Shown here: piece after piece, positions 19,785 to 30,627 of the stretch
Position numbering within the stretch: the first letter of the stretch is position 1
How the letters are laid out: each line of letters starts with the position of its first letter
Origin: a virus
IMG/VR virus record: IMGVR_UViG_3300021378_000088
Location: 1 to 33,529 of that record
Reading direction: 5' to 3' (one strand)
DNA length: 33,529 nt
Translations under genes and position numbers: made by a program
The notes under the pieces: model-generated
What the model saw: only the letters and a program-made list of their open reading frames with translations
The model's database searches: none
Told to the model about the DNA's origin: nothing

Positions 19785-22463
19785 ATGGCTACATTAGTAT
19801 CACCGGGTGTATCAGTAACAGTTAGTGACGAGTCGCAATATGCGGCAGCCACGCAAGGTACCCTACCATTATTAGTTATTGCGACAGCAAGTAACAAAGC
19901 AGATGCATCAGGAAGTGCAACCGCGTCTGGTACTAAACCAGCAAACGCAGGAGTTGCCTACTTAGTATCATCTCAGAGAGAGTTGGTCGAAACATTCGGC
20001 GAACCAAAATTTTATGAAGTTGGCGGTTCAGTTGTTCAAGGTTCAGAAACAAGTGAATACGGACTATTAGCGGCATACCAATATCTAGGAGTTTCAAACA
20101 ACGCATACATTATTCGTGCAGACGTTGATTTGTCAGAACTAGAAGCATCAAGTACAGCACCAGCAGGTGTTATCACTAACGGTACATATTGGCACAATAC
20201 TTCGAAATCAGATTTCGGAATGTTTAAGTGGTCAGGTACTGCTTGGGCAGCCCAAACAGTTTCAGTTTTACACGATGCACCAGGAACAGGAAACGTAGAA
20301 GCGATTTCAGGTGGCTTTGCGGCTCCTTCGAACAACTTTGGCCAAGCAGGCGATTTTGCAGTTGTAACATCTACTGCAAATGTTTCATATTATGAAAAAG
20401 TTGCAAGTGCGTGGGTTTTAGCAGGCGACACTGGTTCTAGTGACTTCCAATTTAAAATGTTTGCACCAACATTAAATTCAGCAGGCGCGGCATTAGTAGC
20501 CGGCGATGTTTATGTTCGTCTAGCGACTGCAGGCGGCGGGTTAGATGTAGACTTAAATGTTTACAACTCAACATCAGGTTTATTTACAGCAGTTCAGGCT
20601 CCAGCATATGCTTCAGACGATTTAGCATCAGCGACATTAACATCTTTAGGTGATGTTTATGCTATGTACAACACAGCGGCAAATGGCTTTGGTCATTTTA
20701 ATCTAAAACGCCATTCGGGTGCAACTACATCAGTTATTACTACAGGTGTACTTCCAAGTACTACAGCAATTACTGGTAGTATCATAATCGAAGGTGAGAC
20801 AAGAACATTTAGTTCTGCCACAATTGATGCAGTTATTACGGATATGCAGGCAAATGCGGCATTGAATACAGCAAACGTTAAAGTTGAAAAGATTGGTACA
20901 AATAAAATTCGTTTTACTAAGACAGATGGTAAAGAGTTGAATATTTCTTCAGCGGCACATCATGCTGTGTTTGGTTTAACAGCATCTACAGTATCAGCAT
21001 CAGTTTGGGAAGCATTATCTTACCAAGCAAAGTCAACACAAATCACAGGTACACTTGCAGAAGGTACATTATGGTATAGTTCATCGCTTAACATTGAAAT
21101 AATGAAAAATGTTAACAACGGTGGTACTATGGAATGGCAGAAGTATGCATGGTCAGAAGATACAAATAGTCTTGCACCAAGTGAATGTCAATTAGTTTCA
21201 GGCGCTCCAACAACTCAAAAAGATGGCACTGCTCTAGTAGCCGGTGACATTTGGGTAGACGGTGATGCAGTTCCATATGCAACAATTTATCGTTGGTCAG
21301 GTTCAGCGTGGGTCAAACTAGACAACGCAGACCAGTCATCTACAAACGGAATGGTATTCAGTCATTACTCACACGATGCACCTTATGATGCAGACGGAGT
21401 AGCAGTGGCAAGAACAGCACACGCATCAGCGGCTAATCCAGATTTACATCCAGAAGGCATATTGATGGTTAACATGGACTACTCTACTTACAACGTTAAG
21501 AAATATACTAGCGGTAAGTGGGAATGGGCTTCAGGTGTAAACACTGACGGTTCAGGCAAGTTCGGACCAGTTGCTCAACGTCATATGGTTGTCGAAGCAA
21601 TGCAATCAGCAGTTTCATCAAACGATGGAATTCGCTCAGAAGCAGTATACTTCAATCTAATCGGTGCTCCAGGATACTTTGAATTGATGGATGAAATGAT
21701 TACATTAAACAAAGACAAAAAAGAAATCGCATTCGTAATTGGCGATACTCCTATGTCATTGAAATCAGATTCAACTTCATTGAAAAACTGGGCTTCAGCA
21801 AATGTTCCAGCAGAAACATACGCGGCAATGTATTATCCACACGGTTTATCAAGTGACTTATCTGGTAACGATGTAGTTATACCTTCATCGGCGATTGCAC
21901 TTAGAACAATTGCATTCTCAGACCAAGTTTCATATCCGTGGTTTGCTCCAGCGGGTCTTACTCGTGGTGTAGTTTCAAACGCAACACAAGTTGGTTATAT
22001 CAACTCAGAAGATGAGTTTGTTAAAGTACAACTTAGCGAAGGTCAACGTGATGTTCTTTATGGACAGCGTATTAACCCAATCGCAGACTTCCCATCAACA
22101 GGAATGGCAGTATATGGTCAGAAGACTACACAAGCAACTGCTAGTGCCTTAGATAGAGTTAATGTTGCTCGTTTGACAAACTATATGCGTCACAACTTAG
22201 ACCAATTATCTCGTGCATTCTTATTCGAACAAAACGATAAGATTACAAGAGATAATATGAGAGATGCAGTAGAACGTTTCTGTGGCAATCTTGTTACTCA
22301 AAGAGGTTTATATGACTTCTTAGTAGTATGTGATAATTCAAATAACACACCAGCAAGAATTGATAGAAATGAATTATGGGTAGATGTTGCAATTCAACCA
22401 GCGAAAGCAGTTGAGTTCATTTACATCCCACTTCGTATCAGAAATACTGGCGAAACATTATAA
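19785..22463 (+). CDS. gp18: Contractile tail sheath protein, gp18-like, 892 aa
   Basis: The N-terminus MATLVSPGVSVTVSDESQY followed by LVSSQRELVETFGEP and YLGVSNNAYIIRADV is characteristic of T4 gp18. The C-terminal third (FNLIGAPGYFELMDEMITL, YPWFAPAGLTRGVV, AVYGQKTTQATASALDRVNV, LFEQNDKITRDNMRDAVERF, ending FIYIPLRIRNTGETL) is the conserved sheath core. gp18 subunits form the sheath that contracts to drive the tube into the cell. At 892 residues it exceeds T4 gp18 (659); the excess lies between about 20166 and 21530. That insert repeats W-containing units such as FKWSGTAW, IYRWSGSAWVKLDN and GDIWVDGDAVPY. They are probably surface-exposed sheath decorations. Confidence 0.96.
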   Translation: MATLVSPGVSVTVSDESQYAAATQGTLPLLVIATASNKADASGSATASGTKPANAGVAYLVSSQRELVETFGEPKFYEVGGSVVQGSETSEYGLLAAYQYLGVSNNAYIIRADVDLSELEASSTAPAGVITNGTYWHNTSKSDFGMFKWSGTAWAAQTVSVLHDAPGTGNVEAISGGFAAPSNNFGQAGDFAVVTSTANVSYYEKVASAWVLAGDTGSSDFQFKMFAPTLNSAGAALVAGDVYVRLATAGGGLDVDLNVYNSTSGLFTAVQAPAYASDDLASATLTSLGDVYAMYNTAANGFGHFNLKRHSGATTSVITTGVLPSTTAITGSIIIEGETRTFSSATIDAVITDMQANAALNTANVKVEKIGTNKIRFTKTDGKELNISSAAHHAVFGLTASTVSASVWEALSYQAKSTQITGTLAEGTLWYSSSLNIEIMKNVNNGGTMEWQKYAWSEDTNSLAPSECQLVSGAPTTQKDGTALVAGDIWVDGDAVPYATIYRWSGSAWVKLDNADQSSTNGMVFSHYSHDAPYDADGVAVARTAHASAANPDLHPEGILMVNMDYSTYNVKKYTSGKWEWASGVNTDGSGKFGPVAQRHMVVEAMQSAVSSNDGIRSEAVYFNLIGAPGYFELMDEMITLNKDKKEIAFVIGDTPMSLKSDSTSLKNWASANVPAETYAAMYYPHGLSSDLSGNDVVIPSSAIALRTIAFSDQVSYPWFAPAGLTRGVVSNATQVGYINSEDEFVKVQLSEGQRDVLYGQRINPIADFPSTGMAVYGQKTTQATASALDRVNVARLTNYMRHNLDQLSRAFLFEQNDKITRDNMRDAVERFCGNLVTQRGLYDFLVVCDNSNNTPARIDRNELWVDVAIQPAKAVEFIYIPLRIRNTGETL

Positions 22464-22485: not shown

Positions 22486-22514
22486 AAAACCCCTCCATCA
22501 GTGAGGGGTTTTTT
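22486..22514 (+). terminator. Intrinsic terminator after sheath gene
   Basis: Perfect 10-bp stem AAAACCCCTC/GAGGGGTTTT, 7-base loop, then more T. It starts 22 bases after the sheath stop. Confidence 0.93.
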
Positions 22515-22535: not shown

Positions 22536-22543
22536 GATAAATA
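22536..22543 (+). promoter_or_regulatory. T4-type late promoter at the start codon
   Basis: GATAAATACAG lies only five bases before ATG 22549. Using the same spacing as elsewhere, transcription would start at 22549-22550, so the mRNA would begin at or near the AUG with no room for a ribosome-binding site. Confidence 0.7.
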
Positions 22544-22548
22544 CAGAT

Positions 22549-24327
22549 ATGAGAATTAATGAAGTCATACTACACGAAGAATTACTAGACGTAAAGTCTG
22601 TGATAACTTCGCCTATTAAAAAACTAGATAAAGTTTTTAAGAGTAACAACTATGAATTAAGAATAGTTGGCGGCGCTGTGCGTGACTTAGCGTTAGATAA
22701 AACACCAAAAGATATTGATTTGGCAACTGATGCTACGCCAGAAGAAATGATGAAGATACTTGATAAATCAGGAATCAGACATATACCTTCTGGTTTAGAA
22801 CATGGAACTATCACTGCGATACTAGATAACGAGCCATATGAAATCACAACACTAAGAGCAGACAAAGAAACAGATGGCAGACACGCAGAAGTTGAGTTTG
22901 TTAAGAGTTGGGAAGAAGATGCTAAACGTAGAGACTTGACATACAATGCTATGAGCATGGATATGGAAGGCAATGTATTTGATTACTTTGGTGGCATGGA
23001 CGACTTACAAGATAAAGTCAGTAAGTTTGTCGGTGACCCAGAAGAAAGAATCACAGAAGACTATTTGAGAATATTAAGATACTTTCGTTTTCAAGGTAGA
23101 CTATCAACTCCTACTTGGGATAAAGACACACTGAAAGCAATCAGTTCAAATGCAGAAGGTTTGAAAAAGATAAGTGCTGAAAGAGTGTGGCAAGAAATGG
23201 GCAAAGTTCTTTCAGGTAACAACGTTGCGAATATATTAGATTATATGGCTAAGACTGGTGTTAGTAAAGTTATAGGATTATCAACTAATGACTTGAACAA
23301 AGTAAAAGATAATGGTAATTCTATCGTTGCATTAGCACAGACGGGCAACACAATAGATATAGCAAAGCGTTGGAAATTAAGCAAAGTTCAAGCAACTATG
23401 TTAGACTTTCTAGTTAAGAATAAGAATAATACACTTGACCAAAAGAAAGTAGAAGATATGATTGCTGATGGAGTTGATAAGACTTTAATTACATCATTAG
23501 CAACTTTACAAGGCAAAGAAGTAAACATAGACGCAGAAGTTCCAAACTTTCCGGTAACAGGTGCTGACTTGATTGCCAAAGGTATGAAACCAGGACCAGA
23601 GATGGGTGCAAAACTTGGACAACTCAAACAGAAGTGGAAGCAAAGTAACTTCAAGGCAACTAAAGATGAATTGTTAAAAGAAAATTCAGACTTAGGCACA
23701 CAAAGAGGTAGATTAGAATACTATCTAAAGAAACCAGTCGAAGATGGAATGTTAGTTCATTTATCTGGTTTAGGAAAGTTTCATAAAGATAACGATGAAT
23801 TAGCAGATATAGTACCAGAAAGAAATGGAGTATATGCTTTACATCCTGATAAATGGGAAAGCACATTTTACAGTCTAACAAATAAAGATTTCAAAAAGAT
23901 TGTTCACTATAAACCAACATTAATAAAAGCACCAGCAGATATGATTGTTGCTGATATGGCTATTGCAAATAGATTTTATAGAACAGATAGTCCAGAAGAA
24001 CAAGAACAACTTGCTAAAGAATATAAAGATAGTATAGGTAAAGACATATCTAGTATGAAAATGCCAGAGGTGATTATGCCTGCGGCCAAGTTATCTAAGA
24101 TGGATGAAGCAGTTCATAGATTTATGACAGGACACGGCGTAACCTTTGCTGGTAAGAAACATGATGAGATAGAGATTGAAGTGACAGGGACTGATAATGT
24201 GAATAAGAAATATATCGTTACAATACTTGCTCCAAAAGAACTATTTGGCAAACAAACTCAAATCTCTTCTAAGTATATGAATAGAGGACCTTGGACTAAA
24301 ACAAAAATAGAAGATGCATTTAAGTAA
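22549..24327 (+). CDS. CCA-adding-type tRNA nucleotidyltransferase with extra C-terminal region, 592 aa
   Basis: Residues 1-410 follow the class II CCA-adding/poly(A) polymerase family: GGAVRD (41-46), catalytic D55 and D57 in KDIDLAT, KRRDLTYNAM (126-135), FDYFGGMDDLQ, ERITEDYLRILRYFRFQGR and later FPVTGADLIAKGMKPGPEMG. The enzyme adds CCA or A residues to RNA 3' ends. Residues about 410-592 are an extra region I do not recognise (GMLVHLSGLGKFHKDNDELA, GVYALHPDKWESTFYSLTNKD, ending KYMNRGPWTKTKIEDAFK). The N-terminus MRINEVILHE|ELL resembles a T4 capsid-targeting sequence with an L-x-E cleavage site. ATG 22549 is chosen over a GTG at 22501, which lies inside the terminator. It sits between sheath and tube genes under a late promoter. 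Confidence 0.88.
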   Translation: MRINEVILHEELLDVKSVITSPIKKLDKVFKSNNYELRIVGGAVRDLALDKTPKDIDLATDATPEEMMKILDKSGIRHIPSGLEHGTITAILDNEPYEITTLRADKETDGRHAEVEFVKSWEEDAKRRDLTYNAMSMDMEGNVFDYFGGMDDLQDKVSKFVGDPEERITEDYLRILRYFRFQGRLSTPTWDKDTLKAISSNAEGLKKISAERVWQEMGKVLSGNNVANILDYMAKTGVSKVIGLSTNDLNKVKDNGNSIVALAQTGNTIDIAKRWKLSKVQATMLDFLVKNKNNTLDQKKVEDMIADGVDKTLITSLATLQGKEVNIDAEVPNFPVTGADLIAKGMKPGPEMGAKLGQLKQKWKQSNFKATKDELLKENSDLGTQRGRLEYYLKKPVEDGMLVHLSGLGKFHKDNDELADIVPERNGVYALHPDKWESTFYSLTNKDFKKIVHYKPTLIKAPADMIVADMAIANRFYRTDSPEEQEQLAKEYKDSIGKDISSMKMPEVIMPAAKLSKMDEAVHRFMTGHGVTFAGKKHDEIEIEVTGTDNVNKKYIVTILAPKELFGKQTQISSKYMNRGPWTKTKIEDAFK

Positions 24328-24334
24328 AAAAACC

Positions 24335-24469
24335 ATGGAACTATTACTTGTTAATTACAAGAACATACACAGTGCTATGTTAAAAGACTGTGCTGACAAA
24401 CAAAAGTTCACTAAGTTGATTGCTGATTTAGAAAAAGATTTAGAGGAGTTAGAAGATGCAAGTATATAA
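24335..24469 (+). CDS. Small acidic helical protein, 44 aa
   Basis: A 44-codon frame starts seven bases after the nucleotidyltransferase stop and ends inside the next gene with a 14-base overlap. The protein begins MELLLVNYKNIHSAMLKDCA and ends in a Glu/Leu helix (LEKDLEELEDASI). There is no clear ribosome-binding site before it, but spacing and overlap suggest translational coupling in both directions. Function unknown. Confidence 0.6.
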   Translation: MELLLVNYKNIHSAMLKDCADKQKFTKLIADLEKDLEELEDASI

Positions 24470-24803
24470 GGAAACAATCTGGCACTTCACTTGTAAATCT
24501 TGTACTGGATTTTGGTCTATTGCCGCTTCTGATGAATGGGTGCCAACAGAACTGTTTTGTCCACACTGTAGTTCGAAACGCACATATGACAACGAACTAG
24601 CAGACCAGATGGATGACAATGACTATCTTCCTGAAAGCAAGCCGTCTCAACTCGAAAACTATTATGAATTTGAAGACGAGTTTGGCGATATGGAAGAACT
24701 TAAAAAAGAAGAATGGTGTTCTTGTGGACACAAAATCATAGATTGTGACTGTAAAGCAGGATGCAAATGTGGTTGTAATAAACGATTTTTAGGTGCATAT
24801 TAA
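24456..24803 (+). CDS. Zinc-ribbon-like Cys-rich protein, 115 aa
   Basis: The ATG follows GAGGAG within the preceding small gene. An N-terminal pair CKSC (residues 14-17) and a second pair CPHC (34-37) make a plausible zinc ribbon; FTCKSCTGFWSIAASDEWVP resembles the metal-binding half of such domains. A middle acidic part follows. The C-terminus is an unusual Cys cluster: CSCGHK, CDCKAGCKCGCNKRF. A related Cys-Gly cluster occurs in the protein at 29080. Metal binding is inferred and the biological role is unknown. It belongs to the transcript of the nucleotidyltransferase. Confidence 0.8.
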   Translation: MQVYKETIWHFTCKSCTGFWSIAASDEWVPTELFCPHCSSKRTYDNELADQMDDNDYLPESKPSQLENYYEFEDEFGDMEELKKEEWCSCGHKIIDCDCKAGCKCGCNKRFLGAY

Positions 24804-24883: not shown

Positions 24884-25480
24884 ATGGCAAGAACATTAAA
24901 CAATTTTGGTGTACCTACTGATTCAGGCGCAGATGCCGTTGGTACTGGTATATTACAACCAAAACTAAACTATAGATTCCGTGTAGTAGTTGCTGGTTTT
25001 GGTGGAACTGGAACAAGTTCACAAGAATTCACAAGACAGGTTATGAATGTATCCCGTCCAAAGGTCTCACACGAGTCAATTCCATTAGATTCATACAACT
25101 CACGTATGTATGTTATGGGTAAACACACTTGGGAGCCAATTACAATAACATTGCGTGATGATATCGCAAATAATCTAACTAAACTAGTTGGTCGTCAAGT
25201 ACAATCACAGTTAGACCATAAAAACCAAAAAGGTCCTTCAGCGGGTACTAATTATAAGTTTTCAACATTGATTGAAATCTTAGATGGTAACTCTGGTGAT
25301 GCGACTGAGCAATGGCAGTTAGAAGGATGTTTCATCACAAACGCTGACTATTCACAGTCTGATTACGCAGTTTCAGACCCAGTAACTATCACTGTGACTT
25401 TACAGTATGATAATGCTGTTCTGAATGACGACATTATGCCACCTATGGACTTCGTATCTGATTCTACTGTAGCAGGTTAA
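24884..25480 (+). CDS. gp19: Tail tube protein, gp19-like, 198 aa
   Basis: Length and pattern suit T4 gp19 (163 residues, slightly longer here). A beta strand block YRFRVVVAGF is followed by FTRQVMNVSRPKVSHESIPL, then SYNSRMYVMGKHTWEPITIT, EQWQLEGCFITNADYSQSDY and DPVTITVTLQYDNAVLND. The order of strands and the W-E-P-I-T-I-T-L-R motif are typical of tube proteins that stack as hexamers to make the inner DNA channel. It follows the sheath in the tail region as in T4, with the nucleotidyltransferase unit inserted between. Confidence 0.9.
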   Translation: MARTLNNFGVPTDSGADAVGTGILQPKLNYRFRVVVAGFGGTGTSSQEFTRQVMNVSRPKVSHESIPLDSYNSRMYVMGKHTWEPITITLRDDIANNLTKLVGRQVQSQLDHKNQKGPSAGTNYKFSTLIEILDGNSGDATEQWQLEGCFITNADYSQSDYAVSDPVTITVTLQYDNAVLNDDIMPPMDFVSDSTVAG

Positions 25481-28517: not shown

Positions 28518-29087
28518 ATGAAAACATTTAAACAATATTTAACAGAGTCCACTAAAGAACACAAGTTCACACTAAGGTTCTGTTGCGACTTAGATGAAGC
28601 AGGTGCAAACCGTATTGAGGCATTCTTGTCAAAATATGACCTTAAGTCGATGTCAAAAACATCAACTACACCAATCACTAAGAATCCAATGTTTTTCAAA
28701 GATGTAGAAAACTCAAAAGTTTCAAAAGTCGATATCGCAACAGGATATCCATTATCAGCAGATATTCTAAGACAACAACTAAGTGATTTACTTAGTATGC
28801 ACCTTACACACGTTGCTGTTCATCCAGAAGGATGGGAACCAGAAGAAGAAGTTGTTGACGAAGACAAAGAGGCACTATTAGTATCAGATTATGATGAAAC
28901 ATCAGATGACGGTAAAACTTACGGTAAAACTTTTGTAGATAAATTTTTAAATGATTTAGAGAAAAAAGAACATGAGGTTGTAGAGAATGAAATGAGCGTA
29001 ACGCCAAAATCTGACCCTGCACCAGAGCAAATGGATAAAGAAGAAAAATCTACTCCATCTGTAATTTCAGGAGACGAAAATGACTAA
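28518..29087 (+). CDS. Unknown protein with capsid-targeting-like N-terminus, 189 aa
   Basis: ATG 28518 is preferred to a TTG at 28506; GGAAAG lies upstream. The N-terminus MKTFKQYLTE|S closely resembles the T4 internal-protein targeting sequence MKTYQEFIAE, with an L-x-E site of the kind cut by the gp21 prohead protease. Residues 15-100 look globular (HKFTLRFCCDLDEAGANRIE, then PLSADILRQQLSDLL). The C-terminal half is very acidic (EPEEEVVDEDKEALLVSDYD). It lies between the putative gp16 gene and gp17 and overlaps the next gene by eight bases. An internal head protein is a reasonable guess; the body of the protein is not recognised. Confidence 0.78.
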   Translation: MKTFKQYLTESTKEHKFTLRFCCDLDEAGANRIEAFLSKYDLKSMSKTSTTPITKNPMFFKDVENSKVSKVDIATGYPLSADILRQQLSDLLSMHLTHVAVHPEGWEPEEEVVDEDKEALLVSDYDETSDDGKTYGKTFVDKFLNDLEKKEHEVVENEMSVTPKSDPAPEQMDKEEKSTPSVISGDEND

Positions 29088-30573: not shown

Positions 30574-30627
30574 TTTTATTTCTCCCATATGAATGATGTT
30601 GAAGTGGGAATCTCCAATCATCAATAG

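Follow-up and report, generated by a model that had tools for sequence, protein, structure and literature searches.

Introduction

The internal proteins IPI-III and Alt of phage T4 carry an N-terminal capsid-targeting sequence (CTS), are processed by the protease gp21 and are injected, and their role has been outlined elsewhere (PMC3012670, PMC9391042, PMC12373910; statements on cited papers refer to the passages that treat the proteins concerned). According to the T4 head review, the T-even internal proteins have nothing in common but the CTS (PMC3012670), and the T4 CTS propeptides are put at 10-20 residues (PMC5694885). Here we analyse a 33,529-base virus record (IMG/VR IMGVR_UViG_3300021378_000088; the whole stretch is called the window), a fragment of a T4-related myovirus, in which one gene encodes a CCA-adding tRNA nucleotidyltransferase core preceded by a T4-like N-terminal peptide and followed by two further modules. 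To judge from sequence, its product is probably a polyprotein that is processed by the prohead protease and injected, carrying the CCA enzyme. It resembles the T4 proteins in an N-terminal peptide of the kind that ends in LxE or IxE, in its late structural context and in the gp21-type protease found in some relatives of the window phage; it differs in that the cargo is a CCA-adding enzyme, the precursor is multi-module with further sites, and packaging is a prediction.

Injection has also been proposed for polyvalent proteins (Iyer 2017, PMC5512222), large products of phages and conjugative elements whose domains (ParB, GNAT, RelA/SpoT, nucleotidyltransferase) are interchangeable. In the window protein and its relatives, by contrast, prohead-protease-like sites part the modules behind a T4-like peptide; the main text of Iyer 2017 nowhere uses the term 'CCA-adding'. 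The ejection proteins of the giant phages SPN3US and phiKZ are packaged in the head and cut by the prohead protease at xxE, some at more than one site, but those cuts remove propeptides, several longer than 100 residues, and the passages concerned describe no single precursor from which several enzyme modules are released (PMC5694885). CCA-adding enzymes of jumbo phages, described among RNA-repair functions as restoring tRNA 3' ends, share both the catalytic core and this proposed repair (PMC7824862); the six cultured-phage enzymes that we sampled differ in having no CTS-like extension. Finally, soluble enzymes have been found by mass spectrometry in virions of the T4-like cyanophages S-CREM2 (PMC10665884) and S-SM1 (PMC3037559). 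Three of those in S-CREM2 have N-termini of the MKxFxxFLxE type, but the S-CREM2 virion table holds no CCA enzyme and the accompanying passages describe no multi-cut precursor (PMC10665884). CTS-tagged internal proteins, polyvalent proteins, ejection proteins cut by the prohead protease, phage CCA enzymes and virion-associated enzymes are known separately, and in the open-licence literature searched we found neither their combination nor a polyprotein strategy for phage cargo described. Polyproteins are familiar from animal viruses.

The CCA-adding core and its N-terminal peptide

Sixty-one loci related to the CCA gene were found. In the window protein the core has human mitochondrial TRNT1 as its best match among solved structures and aligns with it over almost all of the chain (4x4w, chain residues 12-402 of 416, E=1.3e-81), and the alignment ends at KDELL, directly before the first junction LKE↓N (an arrow marks a proposed cut). 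Both the head domain PF01743 (126.5 bits, cut-off 23, E=1e-36) and the RNA-binding domain PF12627 (44.1 bits, cut-off 22, E=1.7e-11) are recognized, and in a residue-by-residue alignment with TRNT1 the catalytic stretches, with the GGxVRD / DxD and EDxxR motifs, are intact. Because the NCBIfam CCA model gives 224 bits, under its cut-off of 290, addition of C, C and A rather than of poly(A) or A alone is likely but not proven.

A 15-residue extension precedes the core. Its start, MRINEVILHE↓E, is an N-terminal peptide of the 10-20-residue type ending in a gp21-type site, and its likeness to T4 N-termini on record (IPIII MKTYQEFIAE, gp24 MAKINELLRE, Alt MELITELFDE, IPI MKTFKEF...STITE) suggests a targeting function. 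The original prediction had picked out these ten residues as a T4-like targeting start ending in LxE; they were quoted correctly, and comparison supports the resemblance. Relatives also share the N-terminal motif whose conservation had been in question: of 24 distinct strings that precede the core, 23 carry [LIV]xE↓E (63 of 66 open reading frames (ORFs), the exception being loci L049-L051; L and G numbers are our handles for loci and records). The motif is kept though the flanks have otherwise changed, and also where the core has become internal and the start methionine is gone (L047, L048, L052, L200, L202, L208 and others).

This conservation bears on a plainer explanation, that the protein is an ordinary late intracellular enzyme of tRNA repair or maturation whose extra domains act in the cell, with a helical start and flexible acidic spacers. 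The jumbo-phage enzymes have been described as tRNA-repair enzymes of just this kind (PMC7824862), yet the explanation is unlikely here, given that the motif persists in 23 of 24 contexts despite the changed flanks and that all six sampled cultured-phage CCA enzymes show by eye no such extension before the core (one of them, that of Phosso, has 522 aa and exceeds the core at its C-terminus). In the Atu_ph07 enzyme, likewise read by eye, nothing extends ahead of the core and an IAE lies inside the first core helix. The tRNA genes of relatives also speak against it, since all 13 in the tiles of relatives (ten in G011, one in G002 and two in G006) already encode CCA. The enzyme is therefore not needed to mature the relatives' tRNAs, which weakens maturation of phage tRNAs as its purpose and favours repair. 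The window and G003 contain no tRNA gene. A tmRNA gene (ARAGORN: tmRNA*) was noted at L081:15184-15530 in G011, a 342-kb phage contig.

Among 27 window genes tested, targeting-peptide patterns match only the CCA gene and one other (28518-29087; Table 1), so that the search for similar N-termini on other proteins of the phage, which the original prediction had proposed, brought a single addition. That second protein has no PHROG or Pfam match at the limits used; its relatives in G002 and G011 stand between head-closure and terminase genes.

In relatives the CCA gene lies within islands of unrelated proteins with similar starts. The island at 0-14 kb of G006 has MRIIEI, MLINEV, MRINEV, MKIFEIINE, MKIYDIITE and MKINEINE, and that at 50-60 kb of G011 has MRLYDLFE (an NMNAT-like protein), MRLDEV, MRLHEF, MKINELLGE and MKLTQLTE. 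The pattern M[KR][ILF]x[EDQ][ILVF], written like the other N-terminal patterns after the N-termini had been seen, occurs at 7 of 168 N-termini in G006 against none of 968 internal methionines, and at 8 of 412 against 3 of 2551 in G011, with no signal in G002 (1/72, p=0.2) or G003 (0/31). A related pattern is clustered by scan permutation (p=0.0002 in G011, p=0.005 in G006), and a broad [LIVF]xE pattern gives p=0.021 in G011, 0.047 in G006, 0.32 in G002 and 0.17 in G003. A CTS-tagged NMNAT-like protein (G011 49775-50893; CTP_transf_like, 1.2e-9) is encoded close to a CCA polyprotein.

Table 1. Features of the CCA gene and its surroundings in the window (arrow, proposed cut)
Feature	Position	Strand	Basis or remark
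Whole gene: CTS-like peptide, CCA-adding core, module 1, module 2	22549..24327	+	592 aa; ATG 22549, stop 24327
Capsid-targeting-like N-terminus MRINEVILHE, proposed cut after E10	22549..22578	+	[LIV]xE↓E kept in relatives
Complete class II CCA-adding tRNA nucleotidyltransferase core, residues 16-376	22594..23676	+	TRNT1 alignment, Pfam
Junction LKE↓N, protease-like site between core and module 1	23674..23682	+	Linker sites in relatives
Module 1, residues 379-510	23683..24078	+	Also found in proteins that lack the CCA enzyme
Junction MDE↓A, protease-like site 5' of module 2	24100..24108	+	Linker sites in relatives
Module 2, residues 521-592, predicted small SH3/tudor-like beta barrel	24109..24324	+	Predicted structure
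Hairpin followed by a T run, intrinsic-terminator-like, separating the sheath-labelled gene from the CCA gene	22489..22514	+	Sequence reading
Late-promoter-like GATAAATAC, ending 4 bases 5' of the ATG	22536..22544	+	Motif count and related loci
Small cysteine-rich protein, the only small ORF between the CCA and tube genes	24456..24803	+	Often near the CCA gene, association only
Second window protein with T4-like targeting start MKTFKQYLTE↓S	28518..29087	+	Pattern match; relatives in G002, G011

Junction sites and the head protease

Sites of the same type recur where modules meet. They are present in 7/7 linkers between core and module 1, 13/13 between core and module 2, 5/5 between modules 1 and 2 and 3/3 between a DUF6321-like module and module 2. 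An [LIVM]xE↓x site, with Lys added to the allowed P1' residues after the count in 1598 linker residues had been seen, occurs in 53 of 61 distinct linkers of at most 60 residues; 1000 shuffles gave a mean of 21.1 and a maximum of 34, a maximum that is not a probability because the linkers are related by descent. Chance thus places some sites in acidic linkers, about 21 of 61 by the shuffled mean, as an ordinary intracellular enzyme would allow, whereas the observed count lies above all 1000 shuffles. Across multi-module proteins [LIVM]xE[AGSNDTEQ] is found 74 times in 1598 linker residues as against 52 times in 24385 module residues.

A gp21-type S77 protease is encoded in 4 of 19 related records and in 8 of 18 of a second set, four being shared with the first. 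Among the records that have it are G002 and G003, in which the CCA gene comes after the sheath-side gene that also precedes it in the window. Capsid proteins of the gp23 type were found in 7 of 12 records. At the position of the T4 gp23 cut, which we take to be FLTE↓A, they read by eye LNE↓S in G011, LTE↓S in G002 and G003, LNE↓N in G017, LKE↓N in G019 and G020 and LTE↓T in G021. The LKE↓N at the junction of core and module 1 is, by eye, the same string as that of the G019 and G020 major capsid proteins.

Two other fates for a packaged protein can be set against cutting at the joints. It might be packaged and injected as one uncut multidomain (polyvalent) protein with its LxE sites unused, for which there are precedents in the polyvalent proteins with ParB, GNAT, RelA/SpoT and other domains described as injected and in the N4 virion RNA polymerase, which is packaged unprocessed (PMC5512222). 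We consider this quite improbable in view of the excess of junction sites and their agreement with the capsid-protein sites, of single modules that exist as tagged genes of their own (below), and of P1 DdrB, of which a processed form enters the head (PMC5512222).

Alternatively, the protein could be a component of the head core (scaffold) that is recruited and then destroyed, its enzyme being relevant in the producing cell only. Cuts at sites of this type are a feature of prohead core proteins, and the basic DUF6321-like module of relatives resembles by eye the T4 gp68 C-terminus; such a fate is nevertheless very improbable, as modules contain few such sites (52 in the 24385 residues of all modules taken together) and the catalytic stretches of the CCA core are intact. 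Because of this rarity of sites within modules, the core should survive the head protease.

The C-terminal modules

The original prediction had described an unrecognized C-terminal region of about 180 residues, perhaps an RNA-binding or targeting domain. Since the core ends at residue 376 the region spans about 216 residues, and it consists of two separable modules behind protease-like sites that are also present in other proteins; the window protein thus joins several unrelated domains, the core and two modules, in one polypeptide. That the region belongs to the CCA enzyme itself was considered and rejected, the core stopping at 376 and module 1 being missing from L028, where the core is 99% identical. 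An RNA-binding or targeting tail finds no support because in relatives the modules are absent or occur in other proteins.

With the CCA loci included, 65 viral loci have module 1 and 52 have module 2. A separate gene in L044 begins with module 1 (MRLHDLFE↓NN), followed by NT5C (5'-nucleotidase-like) and a basic module, and in L057-L061 module 1 sits in yet another protein. Module 2 stands alone in L214 as a short ORF (88 aa from Met) with the start MKTFKQYVDE↓AVGKF, a peptide of the T4 targeting type placed exactly at the [LI]xE↓AV point of the fused forms. Domains added in other relatives include NT5C, GNAT acetyltransferase, HD and a ParB-like domain, the last labelled by us from sequence; the 1216-aa protein of L047 combines HD_4 (Pfam, 2.9e-15), the CCA core and NT5C (1.8e-7). 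General Pfam matches included no zincin-like peptidase or LPD domain, no search having been aimed at these. The two modules are probably separate effectors.

Their structures are predicted with confidence (pLDDT 84.9 for module 1 and 84.2 for module 2). For module 1, Foldseek against the PDB returned 23 matches at E<=10 and none at E<=0.001, VIA-align over 136 of the Foldseek chains singled out 2aua alone (Z 5.4, rmsd 3.4, 100 aligned), and the sole clear match among viral models was another uncharacterized phage protein, A0A6J5P8X5. An ADP-ribosyltransferase, suspected from strand order and sequence, received no clear support from the structure searches. Neither module 1 nor a module denoted ENFADGK has a match in cultured phages at the limits used. 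Module 2 shows a small-barrel resemblance of a common sort, to SH3/tudor-like barrels, the best being 7de9 (Z 6.8, rmsd 1.9, 54 aligned), a middling match with which its likeness to TraI translocation-signal domains is tied (Z 6.3-6.4).

Two further segments were noted in relatives. One, ADP-ribosyltransferase-like by eye (LYHVGTLDASKK...GLSVST), lies at the C-terminus of L042 and in L207, both CCA-containing polyproteins, and that of L042 has no Pfam match. The other is the basic DUF6321-like module (KITKRTPMG...SKAKRREMAIAAKLS), present in CCA, NMNAT-like and cyanophage proteins (L006, L008, L015 and L037; G011 49775; cyanophages Sf-CH8 and P-TIM68). Its resemblance by eye is to SKAKRRQIARKA of T4 gp68, and it could be a second, C-terminal head-core signal; no paper on DUF6321 was found in the open-licence literature searched.

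Virion enzymes of cyanophages

By mass spectrometry, S-CREM2 particles contain an SAM hydrolase, an APH-like kinase, a cytidylyltransferase, a Cas9-like nuclease and two endolysins (PMC10665884). In the deposited sequence the first three begin MKDFDSFLEE, (V)KRFDAFLTE and MKNFSSFLTE, that is, three of the four non-lysis enzymes detected have such N-termini, and the Cas9-like protein has FASFMAE↓AA at residues 19-27. Other detected proteins extend the likeness: gp13 starts MKDLHSFLTE, gp156 is homologous to N-terminal modules of module-1 proteins (37%, 1e-39; L162 and others), gp154 to the module-1 protein of L167 (28%, 7e-6), and gp160 to proteins near module-1 genes (77-78% over 41-48 residues) that start MNIKDIITE, MIIDELFE or MILGDFFSE. 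A strict pattern, written after the N-termini of the detected enzymes had been read, matches 4 of 40 detected against 2 of 154 undetected proteins (p=0.017), and a broad pattern 7 of 40 against 8 of 154 (p=0.017); the test took in 194 of 221 annotated features and 40 of 52 detected proteins, leaving out the two endolysins and ten others. High expression is another explanation of detection that the S-CREM2 authors consider (PMC10665884). A putative citidylyltransferase was found in S-SM1 virions (PMC3037559), and NMNAT-like proteins have been reported from cyanophage virions (PMC10665884), which suggests NAD repair as another injected function.

Proposed pathway and its significance

With the T4-like N-terminus, the similar starts on relatives' neighbours, the gp21-type protease in some relatives and the S-CREM2 precedent, comparison lends the packaging idea considerable support and widens it into that of a processed polyprotein. 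As we picture it, the N-terminal peptide would direct the precursor into the prohead core like the T4 internal proteins, and the phage's gp21-type S77 protease would cut after LHE (residue 10), LKE (378) and MDE (520). These cuts would free the CCA-adding enzyme and two small modules inside the head, to be injected with the DNA, and as infection begins the enzyme would restore or maintain the 3' CCA of tRNAs. Arriving together with the DNA, it could start repair before late-gene expression; that the repair might counter tRNA-attacking defences was proposed in the original prediction. Packaging, cutting, injection and tRNA repair are in this way predicted for the window protein, whereas the core, the modules, the junction sites and the late-promoter-like motif are visible in its sequence, and the protease in that of some relatives.

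Several observations weigh against this processed and injected polyprotein. The P1' residue at the first site is Glu, as against S, N or T at the capsid-protein sites; eight of the 61 linkers have no site, including all four ParB-HD linkers; and the patterns were partly chosen after the sequences had been seen, on linkers that are kin by descent. Most related records have no S77 match (15/19 and 10/18), many of them being fragments, and no S77 protease is found in the 33.5 kb window, itself a fragment. Some module-1 proteins (L057-L061) begin without a CTS-like peptide, and the late motif described below is missing in 10 of 31 related loci. In S-CREM2, 2 of 154 undetected proteins match the strict pattern and 36 of 40 detected ones do not, many of these being tail or head parts. 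A strict T4-like pattern is found at 3 of 412 N-termini against 6 of 2551 internal methionines in G011 (clustering p=1) and at 0 of 31 against 0 of 215 in G003; the counts are 2/168 against 0/968 in G006 and 2/72 against 4/593 in G002, and the pattern shows no clustering.

If the proposal is true, phage heads deliver sets of enzymes cut from one precursor, beyond single internal proteins. With the N-terminal peptide and the cut sites as guides, one could then predict from the sequence of an uncultured phage which proteins it injects. Packaging of a CCA enzyme would imply an attack on tRNA 3' ends, or a need to protect them, from the first minutes of infection.

Linker repeats in a second group of module-1 proteins

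In 25 module-1 ORFs from L145-L169, several of which are near-duplicates (for example those of L153-L157), the commonest tetrapeptide is GVAE, with 36 copies. G[VIML][AT]E occurs 57 times in their 17437 residues (shuffled mean 2.1, maximum 7) and is rarer in the other ORFs of the same loci (28 in 25209 residues); in the ORFs read by eye the motif stands mostly between modules. At the DNA level the word CAAGGTGTGGCGGAA (QGVAE), with at most two mismatches, has 41 copies in 7 of 11 records, against 2 in all for the reversed control. The copies, up to eight per record, lie all on one strand within each record, the reading frame having been checked for part of them, and their codons vary little across 37 distinct 27-base contexts (GGT in 29 of 37, GAA in 35 of 37). 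Many ORFs of L145-L169 start MRAQEFVAE, MRANEFLIE, MKIREVIVE or MRASEFLIE, while others do not.

The repeated (Q)GVAE linker could be both a cut site and a recombination word for the swapping of modules. It is possible, and we put it forward tentatively, that many T4-related phages carry injected polyproteins of this design, CTS-tagged and built of interchangeable modules with joints cut by the prohead protease and, in the L145-L169 group, perhaps swapped by way of the GVAE word; the head protease would then double as a polyprotein processor, and the CCA enzyme would be one among tRNA, NAD and nucleotide repair cargoes.

Gene context and expression signals

Compared with the window terminase, those of PA5oct-like Pseudomonas phages show 52.5% identity and that of Agrobacterium phage Atu_ph07 shows 51.7%. 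Among the papers listed for PA5oct, none dealt with its virion proteins. The CCA gene lies 3' of ORF 19785-22463 and 5' of the tube gene 24884-25480. The original prediction had placed it between sheath and tube genes behind a late promoter, and its coordinates, the tube gene and the late-promoter-like GATAAATAC agree with our reading; 'sheath' is its label for ORF 19785-22463. An in-frame GTG at 22501 is a less likely start than the ATG: a few codons 5' of the ATG, many relatives no longer have an open frame.

The late motif has 11 copies in the window on both strands, against 0.44 expected and at most 3 in 100 Markov shuffles, and nine of the 11 lie 13-54 bases 5' of a gene start, with starts as assigned here. 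As the copy at the CCA gene ends so close to the ATG, the mRNA may be almost leaderless. At other window genes with the motif it begins 32-54 bases upstream, unlike at the CCA gene; the minus-strand gene at 30588 could alternatively start nearer its late motif, at 30621. ATAAATA stands at -12 in 21 of the 31 related loci whose upstream DNA was examined, a subset of the related loci, and by eye a hairpin like that of the window lies upstream of the gene in these 21. Nine of the ten motif-less loci also have no hairpin, and L036 has the variant GCTAAATAC.

Of the 107 loci in the ORF set, 42 match the small cysteine-rich protein (MQVYKETIWHFTCKSC...) encoded downstream of the CCA gene, in some cases over just 30-40 residues. 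A protein with a similar N-terminus is encoded in G006 (position 1607), two genes upstream of the CCA gene.

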